Source: a virus. Taken from it: a DNA stretch of 31,680 bases. The stretch is from the IMG/VR virus record IMGVR_UViG_3300047323_000334, positions 1-31,680 of that record; one strand, 5' to 3'. Shown here one piece after another: positions 25,243 through 27,400 of this stretch; the stretch's first letter is position 1, and every line of letters starts with the position of its first letter. The translations under genes and the position numbers were made by a program. The notes beneath the pieces were generated by a model that saw only the letters and a list, made by a program, of their open reading frames with translations, was not told the origin of the DNA and ran no database searches.

Positions 25243-25746
25243 CTAAAGGCTTCTTATCTCCTTCATAAGCTGTATTTCTGATTCCGACGCTCCGTCCTTT
25301 CGTCGCTCCGCTTCCCAATCGGTATCCGACAGCGCTTCAGTTTTGTCCGAAGTGCTCTCTAATTGCCTTGCGCAATCCGCGTTATCTCTTGTCCAGTTAG
25401 CCCTCGCGCGATCCAACTCCTTTTGAGAAAACTTGCCGGTGTAGCAACCGCCATTGAAATACAGAACATCGAGCAATAGCACATGGCAACTCGGGAAAAA
25501 CGAGCCGGAAATGTTGTTGCGGGAATGGAGCTGTTGATTGGCCAGGCGTTGGATCTCCGCCAGCGTTGAGTCATCACGGGTCAAACAAGCATCAAGATTT
25601 TTCGACCACAATTGCTGGGCTATCGACTGGCTAGACTTGGCGTGACTCATGTCAGCTACAAGAGTGGGGTGGAGTCTCGGTGCCGAGGAAGCCATAGGCA
25701 TATACAAGGCCGAAACCGCTAACGCCACTCTCAAAGCCATCATCAT
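25243..25746 (-). CDS. Secreted small protein at the end of the early operon
   Basis: A 167-aa protein beginning MMMALRVALAVSALYMPMAS, a signal peptide likely cleaved near residues 21-23. The mature part has four Cys (DACLTRDD, SCHVLLLD, GGCYTGKF, DCARQLES), fit for periplasmic disulfides, and a segment RANWTRDNADCARQL that recalls the C-terminal motif of LprI/DUF1311 proteins. That likeness is weak. It overlaps the Mor-like gene (TAATG) and is followed by the terminator. It may be a moron acting in the periplasm. Confidence 0.75.
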   Translation of the reverse strand: MMMALRVALAVSALYMPMASSAPRLHPTLVADMSHAKSSQSIAQQLWSKNLDACLTRDDSTLAEIQRLANQQLHSRNNISGSFFPSCHVLLLDVLYFNGGCYTGKFSQKELDRARANWTRDNADCARQLESTSDKTEALSDTDWEAERRKDGASESEIQLMKEIRSL

Positions 25747-26189
25747 TAATGGACAGTCCTGTCATCAAAGCCGAATAGGTCGGGCTCGTTGCGGCGATGC
25801 AACACCCTTTGGCGCGCGATGATGTCATATATAGTTGGTGATGCAAGCTTGTACTTACGCACCAGGTCCGTTGGCTGGATACCCGCGTCGCGCCAATCCC
25901 GATAGATCGCCGCGTCACGCATTGCCTTCTTCAGCGAGTCACCTCGGGGAAGGTAAACCACTGCTCCGCCCATCGTGTCGCAAATTGCAAAGACCACCGA
26001 CCTAGCGATTTCAGGCACAGCATCCGGGTTGTCTTGCAATCTCCCCCGTAGCTCCGCCTCAGCGATCTCGACCATTTCCTTGATGGTGCCTTCCCAGCGA
26101 TGCATGACCGTTGGATCTTCCATATGGGCAAGCACTTTGTTCGGATCTAGCCTATCGGTGTCGTCGGGAAAAAGCTGATCGCCACTCAT
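25746..26189 (-). CDS. mor: Mor/C-type middle or late transcription activator
   Basis: A 147-aa protein with the Mor activator domain at residues about 60-140. The segment AICDTMGGAVVYLPRGDSLK is the beta-strand and start of the DNA-binding part, and AIYRDWRDAGIQPTDLVRKY followed by SPTIYDIIARQRVLH is the helix-turn-helix. Mu Mor (129 aa) turns on middle transcription and Mu C late transcription; only one such gene is seen here, so it may do both. It overlaps the gp16-family gene (ATGA). It is the best candidate to act on the repeated late elements. Confidence 0.93.
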   Translation of the reverse strand: MSGDQLFPDDTDRLDPNKVLAHMEDPTVMHRWEGTIKEMVEIAEAELRGRLQDNPDAVPEIARSVVFAICDTMGGAVVYLPRGDSLKKAMRDAAIYRDWRDAGIQPTDLVRKYKLASPTIYDIIARQRVLHRRNEPDLFGFDDRTVH

Positions 26190-26599
26190 TGGGTCGGCCT
26201 CTTGTTGCGCTTCGCGTCATAGGTCAACGCCGAAACCATGCTCCCCAGTTGCTTGGCATCCAGCCACTCCACTCGATCCACTTTGAACATCCGTTTTGCC
26301 ATTCCATCGGCGTATTCCCAAGGTCGTTGGGCCTCTGCCATGAATGCCTCAATTTTGCCAACCAGCTTTGCTCTATCGGGTGCAACGTTGGGGGCAGAAC
26401 GCCCCTTGGGTTTGGATTTTGGTTGCCACCCAAGCCTCCCGAGCTCTGCAAGTACTGCCACAACCTGCATCGGTCCAAGATCTTTTGCGGAGGTGGCACC
26501 CGTTACACGCTTGAGCAAAGACCGGTAGGTTTCCTCATCAAGTCCCAAATCTTTCTTTGCTATGTGGATCTTCGATAGCTGTACGTTACGTCGATTCAT
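26186..26599 (-). CDS. gp16 family protein (DUF1018)
   Basis: A 137-aa protein from the ATG at 26599 (MNRRNVQLSKIHIAKKDLGL), supported by GAGGAG and GGAG runs upstream; a GTG at 26617 lies within that SD stretch. The LDEETYRSLLKRVTGATSAK motif and the later EYADGMAKRMFKVDRVEWLD are typical of the Mu gp16 regulatory family, found just before mor. The function is not known in detail. The hammerhead ribozyme at 26623-26699 lies directly upstream in the same transcript. Confidence 0.9.
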   Translation of the reverse strand: MNRRNVQLSKIHIAKKDLGLDEETYRSLLKRVTGATSAKDLGPMQVVAVLAELGRLGWQPKSKPKGRSAPNVAPDRAKLVGKIEAFMAEAQRPWEYADGMAKRMFKVDRVEWLDAKQLGSMVSALTYDAKRNKRPTQ

Positions 26600-26622
26600 T
26601 TTCTCCTTTCTCCTCACTTCAT

Positions 26623-26699
26623 CGGCAGCTCATCAGTACCTGGTTGCCATGCCGGGTAGACCGTCCAGTTACCTGGAGCGGTTTCGCTCAGTGAAGCCG
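26623..26699 (-). ncRNA. Type II hammerhead ribozyme, copy 1 (between 134-aa gene and gp16-family gene)
   Basis: All core elements are present on the minus strand in type II order. GC-GAAA lies at 26687-26682. Stem III pairs CCG/CGG and UCCAG/CUGGA with a bulged C and a GUAA loop, closed by the A15.1-U16.1 pair. The cleavage triplet is GUC (26661-26659). Stem I pairs UACC/GGUA and GG/CC around one mismatch, with a loop CAUGGCAA. CUGAUGA is at 26636-26630, followed by GC that pairs with the GC before GAAA. Stem II can extend by GCCG (26626-26623) with CGGC (26699-26696). The upstream gene's TGA ends one base before the GC. Cleavage is expected after C26659. Confidence 0.93.
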
Positions 26700-27092
26700 C
26701 TCGATGGACGTGTTGTTAGTGAGCAGATGTTTTTTGAGTGAGTTGAAGCTTTTCCAGGAAGGGTCGAAGTGGAACCACTTTTTCGCAGCGACCTTGTCAG
26801 CTTCGCGCTTCCCCCAAAGCTTTCGATACACCTCGACTTCTTTCTTCGAATGCAATGCACGACCAACCTTGCGCATGAAGCGGCGCGACTCTTCGTGCTT
26901 CGGCTCACCGTCATCCGAGCGCATCCATTCGCCTTTGAATACACCGTCCACATAAACGTTTGTGGACCAGCTCCGACTCTTGCCGCATGCCCCTTGCTGT
27001 AGGGTCAGAACAAACTGATCACACTTCAACGTCATTGAGCCCCACGGGCTTGCCATCTGCGCCTTGAGCGCATCCCAATCCTCTTGAACCAT
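26688..27092 (-). CDS. 134-aa phage protein flanked by two hammerhead ribozymes
   Basis: A conserved-looking 134-aa protein of unknown function, MVQEDWDALKAQMASPWGSM. The centre has GKSRSWSTNVYVDGVFKGEW, then HEESRRFMRKVGRALHSKKE and a basic, aromatic C-terminal half (YRKLWGKREADKVAAKKWFH, then FDPSWKSFNSLKKHL). The basic nature would suit nucleic acid binding. AGGG precedes the ATG. Its TGA stop lies at the first bases of hammerhead copy 1, and its 5' leader is the end of hammerhead copy 2. Cleavage at both sites would leave an RNA of about 478 nt coding for this protein alone. Confidence 0.85.
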   Translation of the reverse strand: MVQEDWDALKAQMASPWGSMTLKCDQFVLTLQQGACGKSRSWSTNVYVDGVFKGEWMRSDDGEPKHEESRRFMRKVGRALHSKKEVEVYRKLWGKREADKVAAKKWFHFDPSWKSFNSLKKHLLTNNTSIERLH

Positions 27093-27094
27093 GT

Positions 27095-27177
27095 ATCCCT
27101 CGGATGCTCATCAGTACTCGGCCACCGCGCCGAGCAGACCACCCCAGTCTCCTGAGGTGGTTTCGCTTAGTGGATGG
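27095..27177 (-). ncRNA. Type II hammerhead ribozyme, copy 2 (between 77-aa gene and 134-aa gene)
   Basis: On the minus strand GC-GAAA lies at 27166-27161. Stem III is a perfect ten-pair hairpin (ACCACCUCAG, loop GAGA, CUGGGGUGGU), including the A15.1-U16.1 pair. The cleavage triplet is GUC (27139-27137). Stem I is an eight-pair hairpin (UGCUCGGC, loop GCGGUG, GCCGAGUA). CUGAUGA is at 27114-27108, then GC pairs with the first GC. Stem II may extend by GGAU (27098-27095) with AUCC (27175-27172), which would cover the ribosome site of the next gene. Stems differ from copy 1 but still pair, a covariation signature. Cleavage is expected after C27137. Confidence 0.95.
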
Positions 27178-27400
27178 TTGGGTTGATGGTCATCTTTTCC
27201 CGCATCGCTTGGCAGATTTCGCAGTCGCAGCCAAGGTGGCGAGCTGTGCCTTCGAGGGGAATGCGAGCGATGAGTCGTGCGCTGTGAACCATCATGCTGG
27301 CGACACGACCTGCTGTGCTGGCACCCAACTGATTGGAGTTATCTACGGAGATGGACACGCCATCGGTGCTGTCTTCGATAGTGATTTGGAACTTGGCCAT
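27167..27400 (-). CDS. Small early protein with CxxC motif, unknown function
   Basis: A 77-aa protein, MAKFQITIEDSTDGVSISVD, a beta-rich start, followed by a helix (TAGRVASMMVHSARLIARIP) and CDCEIC near residues 58-63 that may bind a metal. I do not know the family; short proteins like this are common in the early regions of B3-like phages. Its TAA stop lies inside the 3' strand of stem II of hammerhead copy 2 (CACUAAGC), so translation of its last codons and folding of the ribozyme compete. Confidence 0.75.
   Translation of the reverse strand: MAKFQITIEDSTDGVSISVDNSNQLGASTAGRVASMMVHSARLIARIPLEGTARHLGCDCEICQAMREKMTINPTIH

Follow-up and report, generated by a model that had tools for sequence, protein, structure and literature searches.

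Two type II hammerhead ribozymes bracket a small gene in the early operon of a Mu-like phage and may act as sites of mRNA cutting and gene exchange

Introduction

Hammerhead ribozymes flanking single prophage genes were reported in 2011 by Perreault et al. (PMC3088659), together with three tandem arrangements that cut in vitro—one of them also in E. coli. In type II hammerheads the 3' strand alone forms a pseudoknot; once this pseudoknot had formed, cleavage by a type II construct was fast even at 0.5 mM Mg, and cleavage became about 20-fold slower when the pseudoknot was cut down from six to four pairs (PMC3088659). Stop codons, translation and recombination are not mentioned in the text of that study. 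A more recent paper from 2023 recalls earlier work in which hammerhead and twister ribozymes were enriched near Mu-like phage genes (PMC10085705), and a 2017 review describes the role of hammerheads as an open question (PMC6155905).

Here, we analyze a viral record of 31680 bases—the whole stretch being termed the window—in which two type II hammerheads, HHR-A and HHR-B, flank a 134-aa gene. Hammerheads around phage genes are already known, and these paired ribozymes belong to that kind. They share the core, the helix order, the two-pair stem II and the loop I-tail pseudoknot of RF02276 and of the 2011 type II motifs, which are likewise clustered around single prophage genes, and differ from them in detail only, i.e., in the new phage and in one pseudoknot pair lost from HHR-A (PMC3088659). 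The triple arrangement at ardA of Agrobacterium tumefaciens, which cut both in vitro and in E. coli (PMC3088659), also places several same-strand ribozymes around short phage genes; however, the genes differ, since the bracketed gene (phrog_5671) lies here in a Mu-like early operon. The association with Mu-like phages is shared with the ribozymes of PMC10085705, whereas the present analysis documents the exact stop-to-start position and recombination within the ribozyme. Plant retrozymes and viroid-like circular RNAs resemble this locus in that hammerhead pairs bound an RNA unit, yet their ribozymes are of types I/III, their RNA is circular and they serve replication or retrotransposition, whereas the present pair is of type II. 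Three points could not be found in the literature examined: the abutment of the ribozymes on stop codons (70/77 copies), the existence of hybrid ribozymes and the copies carried by laboratory phages.

Results

Gene content of the Mu-like early operon

Judging from profile matches and open reading frames, the minus strand carries a Mu-like early operon, with the genes arranged in the order Mu transposase (C-terminal part, since the record ends inside this gene at its right edge), AAA/TniB-like ATPase, DUF3164, 77-aa gene, 134-aa gene, GemA and Mor. The 77-aa gene (27167-27400, with a weak match to phrog_3652) and the 134-aa gene (26688-27092, a phrog_5671 match) end in stop codons, TAA and TGA, that adjoin HHR-A and HHR-B, respectively. 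They are followed on the same strand by gemA (26186-26617; PF06252, E 6e-27), the likely start of which is the ATG at 26599 preceded by AAGGAG, and by the Mu-type middle activator gene mor (25746-26189; PF08765, E 3.5e-19). The phage host is probably Pseudomonas, because, among bacterial genomes carrying the 134-aa gene, the closest come from Pseudomonas species; no plasmid relatives were found. The 134-aa protein (26691-27092) has no Pfam match and, despite an AlphaFold pLDDT of 92.5, no fold match in the PDB—possibly representing a new small fold. Reading the role of the ribozymes from the gene that they bracket was thus abandoned, as phrog_5671 is a family of unassigned function. No terminator-like sites were detected on the minus strand between 24500 and 31680; one terminator-like and one promoter-like site, fewer than in shuffled sequences, are both located on the other strand, and these sole two candidates therefore do not make a cut in the early transcript redundant.

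HHR-A is a complete type II hammerhead

An initial annotation, made from the letters of the DNA, had proposed a complete type II hammerhead on the sense strand of the early operon, cutting after C27137, and had suggested an Infernal search with the Rfam models. A cmscan search of the window against all of Rfam 15 returned two matches above cut-off, both to RF02276 (Hammerhead_II) and both on the minus strand. The first, HHR-A (27168-27098, minus strand, between the 77-aa and 134-aa genes), scored 64.1 bits (E 2.7e-11) over the full model (1-66), against a gathering cut-off of 37 bits. Together with the conservation and covariation described below, this match bears out the assignment, and the predicted cleavage site (C27137/U27136) agrees with the Rfam model, C27137 occupying core position C17. 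A chance match is ruled out by the E-value, by the presence of a second copy and by the conservation in relatives.

All of the elements listed by the annotation (CUGAUGA, GAAA, a ten-pair stem III, a GUC cleavage triplet and an eight-pair stem I) are present, as are the closing pairs A15.1-U16.1 and G10.1-C11.1 that it had claimed. HHR-A begins at the stop of the 77-aa gene in the order TAA-GC-GAAA, with the stop codon at 27169-27167, the 5' strand of stem II at 27166-27165 and GAAA at 27164-27161. Stem III (27138-27161) pairs 27161-27152 with 27147-27138 around a 4-nt loop and is followed directly by C27137; stem I (27115-27136) pairs 27136-27129 with 27122-27115 around a 6-nt loop. CUGAUGA (27114-27108) and the 3' strand of stem II (GC, 27107-27106) complete the core. 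All stem III pairs (10/10) and stem I pairs (8/8) are intact, stem II consists of two pairs only, and both hairpins appear in the RNAfold output (-32.3 kcal/mol, z -3.1). Stems I and III are closed by loops and stem II is open, which is the type II arrangement; both copies in the window contain the conserved core (CUGANGA, GAAA and a UH cleavage site) and the two closing pairs.

In line with the type II consensus, a pseudoknot is predicted between loop I and the 3' tail of HHR-A (27101-27104), with one of the four pairs being U.U. The Shine-Dalgarno-like GAGGG of the 134-aa gene (27097-27101) adjoins this pseudoknot strand. The annotation had envisaged an extension of stem II that would use, and thereby hide, the ribosome site; a contiguous extension is ruled out by an A.A at the third position, the tail being paired with loop I instead. 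The notion of a hidden site survives in another form, through a possible weak alternative hairpin (AUCC-GAG-GGAU, about -1.9 kcal/mol). This small hairpin, AUCCGAGGGAU, follows the HHR-A core at 27094-27104 and could compete with the pseudoknot as well as cover the ribosome site; the siblings examined lack it.

A second ribozyme and a 478-nt unit

The second match, HHR-B (26620-26689, minus strand; RF02276, 44.8 bits, E 3.1e-6), lies between the 134-aa gene and gemA, and begins at the 134-aa stop codon (TGA-GC-GAAA). The initial annotation did not include it, and its discovery changes the picture: instead of one cut, there is a gene with a ribozyme on either side. Its core is intact, stem III has nine pairs and one bulged C, stem I is interrupted by a single C.A mismatch, and UGGCA could pair with UGCCG in a five-pair pseudoknot; the minimum-energy fold of this segment differs from the ribozyme fold. 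Cleavage is predicted at C26659/U26658. The 3' tails of both ribozymes run toward the ribosome sites of the next genes, and the 134-aa gene and gemA have Shine-Dalgarno-like sites of their own. A two-codon frame, AUG AAG UGA, was observed between HHR-B and gemA (26614-26625) and may be due to chance.

Two same-strand copies thus flank the 134-aa gene of a phage with GemA, Mor and a Mu transposase—an arrangement of the prophage-cluster kind—with their predicted cuts 478 nt apart. The two cuts would free an RNA of 478 nt (26659-27136) containing the whole 134-aa frame. A retrozyme-like tandem of type I or III hammerheads was also considered and rejected, as both copies are of type II.

Conservation and covariation among relatives

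The position of HHR-A, 5 nt before the 134-aa homologue, is kept in 12/13 viral loci and in 4/4 Pseudomonas genomes. The 134-aa proteins of the 12 viral contigs with an upstream ribozyme are 53-67% identical; the single exception has a 29% identical relative of the protein and no ribozyme. RF02276 was detected, in one or two copies, in 37 of 39 near-relative records (drawn in by their 134-aa, 77-aa or GemA proteins) and, with strict filters, in 11 of the 199 Pseudomonas genomes sampled. More distant GemA phages carried it in 3/23 cases, so that the hammerhead is not essential for a GemA-type operon. Chromohalobacter phage YPCBV-1 and Alteromonadaceae phage B23, the 134-aa relatives of which are about 30% identical, each have one copy in the neighborhood. 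An Rfam scan of 20 loci of relatives without RF02276 disclosed no other ribozyme class at the same place.

When 40 distinct sequences were aligned without gaps, 98.1% of the pairing cells proved to be paired (92.6% in shuffles), changes on both sides occur in 12 of the 24 pairs (5.7 in shuffles), and pairing falls below 50% when the partners are slid by 1-3 columns. Over the family, 99.4% of the cells of the loop I-tail pseudoknot pair, and its G43-C67 is replaced by A43-U67 in one aligned sequence (L019), a type of change also seen in copies outside the alignment, e.g., the second copy of L008. HHR-A of the window is the sole aligned copy (1/40) with an unpaired pseudoknot position; the other 39 keep the pair. 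Covariation in both the helices and the pseudoknot indicates selection on the folded RNA.

Two side observations emerged among the relatives. A divergent second hammerhead in one locus (L005:2916-2987, 45.1 bits) has a CUGAGGA core with U.G at 10.1-11.1, and its stem III, unrelated in sequence, is paired throughout; elsewhere, adjacent matches to isrK and C4 antisense RNA lie near gemA of another phage (L085:3563-3735).

Placement between stop and start codons

In 70 of the 77 distinct copies collected from relatives, the first letter of the upstream stop codon lies 3-4 nt ahead of stem II; start codons lie 5-31 nt past stem II. This abutment spans 11 upstream families without detected mutual similarity, eight of them represented once. 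Such placement suggests a coupling with translation, while falling short of proof because a compact genome favors short gaps. In one downstream family, encoding proteins of 92-98 aa, no Shine-Dalgarno sequence is found between the ribozyme and the ATG in 28/28 distinct sequences, and codon-position differences indicate that the N-terminus of the gene is coding. This family occurs at L162:2636-2740 (JBD5, gp19 type) as well as in L004, L007, L009, L161 and L168-L170; the annotated starts of DMS3-17 and D3112 orf17, about 114 nt further on, are probably wrong.

Copies in laboratory phages

RF02276 is matched at 66.2 bits in phages DMS3, JBD30, D3112, JBD5, MP22, H70 and Nox, in each case between the genes named gp18 and gp19 in JBD5; the P. 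aeruginosa phages DMS3, JBD30, D3112, JBD5 and MP22 have one copy each there. The 181-bp region has matches in 121 phage records. A literature search, with subscription papers mostly outside its coverage, returned no report of a hammerhead in DMS3, JBD30 or D3112, or of a hammerhead as a recombination site.

Hybrid ribozymes

The gene between paired ribozymes varies among relatives, and some relatives have the same flanking genes, no middle gene and a single ribozyme. In L044, the stretch of the single ribozyme between GCGAAA and CUGAUGAGCA is identical to HHR-A of L047, while the remainder is the tail of HHR-B, and the flanks of these two loci are 92% (upstream) and 96% (downstream) identical. 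The switch occurs before stem I in L019 (compared with L020) and L027 (compared with L025), and after stem I in L035 (compared with L036/L009). Every hybrid shows a single clear switch point: of 22-37 informative sites, 1-5 do not fit. Since flanking positions are counted among these sites, the computed switch probabilities are overstated; within the ribozyme alone the pattern is still visible by eye. As judged from these alignments, the one hybrid ribozyme in phages without the middle gene is the mark of recombination inside the ribozyme. The switch points lie at different places, a pattern that fits ordinary homologous recombination better than an RNA-based or site-specific event. In a pooled test, stem I tracked the downstream gene (0/300 permutations), and no significant tracking was found for the 5' half with the upstream gene or for the 7-nt tail; the claim of exchange therefore rests on the individual hybrids.

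Discussion

The reading that we favor, to which we assign a probability of roughly 0.7, is that the early polycistronic RNA is cut co-transcriptionally at gene borders into hairpin-capped mRNAs, with the cutting sites serving also as joints for gene exchange. HHR-A and HHR-B would each fold and self-cut while RNA polymerase passes. The upstream mRNA would then end in the stem III hairpin with a 2',3'-cyclic phosphate, the middle product would be a 478-nt message encoding the 134-aa protein, and the gemA-mor mRNA would carry a 5'-hydroxyl and the stem I hairpin at its beginning. Terminal hairpins should slow decay from the new ends, and the levels of neighboring early genes could consequently be set separately, with no extra promoters or terminators. 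Ribosomes should compete with cutting, as they would cover the GAAA strand when terminating at the abutting stop and the pseudoknot strand when initiating on the next gene. We infer cleavage in the cell, the effect on RNA stability and the competition with ribosomes. Their shared sequence and intergenic position would further allow the ribozymes to act as recombination joints that add or remove the middle gene. Several points count against this reading. HHR-A has lost one of its four pseudoknot pairs, and its cutting is possibly slowed, considering the effect of shortening the pseudoknot (PMC3088659); HHR-B has a mismatched stem I and a minimum-energy fold other than the ribozyme; and most of the more distant GemA phages lack the element.

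The lost pseudoknot pair of HHR-A, along with the mismatched stem I of HHR-B, might be taken to mean that both copies are decaying relics in this phage, but with two intact cores, two scores above the Rfam cut-off and every stem I and stem III pair of HHR-A in place, we regard this as the least probable of the explanations. An unlikely, though somewhat better founded, proposal is that the sequences persist chiefly for their use as DNA joints at which gene cassettes recombine, with RNA cleavage being incidental. The variable middle gene and the hybrids in L044, L019/L020, L027/L025 and L035/L036, each with one switch at a differing place, speak for such joints; recombination alone, however, fails to explain the compensatory changes in stems and pseudoknot, many one-copy phages (e.g., DMS3, JBD30 and D3112) keep the ribozyme intact, and the pooled test links only stem I with a neighboring gene.

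Control of translation could likewise be the main role, the fold juxtaposing a stop with the next start and cutting either ending the coupling or exposing the ribosome site. The stop codons adjoining stem II, the nearby starts and the downstream family devoid of Shine-Dalgarno sequences fit this idea; yet the 134-aa gene and gemA carry such sites of their own, and a compact phage genome puts any intergenic element near a stop codon—making this role, on balance, quite improbable. Tandem hammerheads make circles in plant retrozymes, and the released 478-nt RNA might similarly become a circular mRNA encoding the 134-aa protein, either by religation or through a ligase. Two same-strand copies bound the unit from cleavage to cleavage, and its ends would hold stem III-GUC (HHR-B) and stem I-CUGAUGA (HHR-A) with a compatible GC/GC stem II; but stem II has just two pairs, many relatives are single-copy and could form no circle, and spliced or circular products of tandem hammerheads were sought and not found (PMC3088659). 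We therefore consider circularization very unlikely.

Co-transcriptional cutting at gene borders, the preferred reading, can be pursued in phages of P. aeruginosa laboratory strains, i.e., DMS3, JBD30 and D3112, where mapping of RNA ends and a point mutant make the purpose of the copy testable. The stop abutment and the hybrid ribozymes lead to concrete predictions by which mRNA cutting, translation coupling and gene exchange can be told apart. The ribozyme fills the gap from stop to start, and its halves are separate hairpins joined only by the invariant two-pair stem II. On a more tentative note, and with the odds somewhat against it, the hammerhead may be both a gene boundary and an exchange joint, with recombination inside it swapping genes while leaving a working ribozyme behind—the unit of DNA exchanged being the unit of RNA released. 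If this holds true, each acquired gene would gain its own mRNA without a promoter or a terminator.
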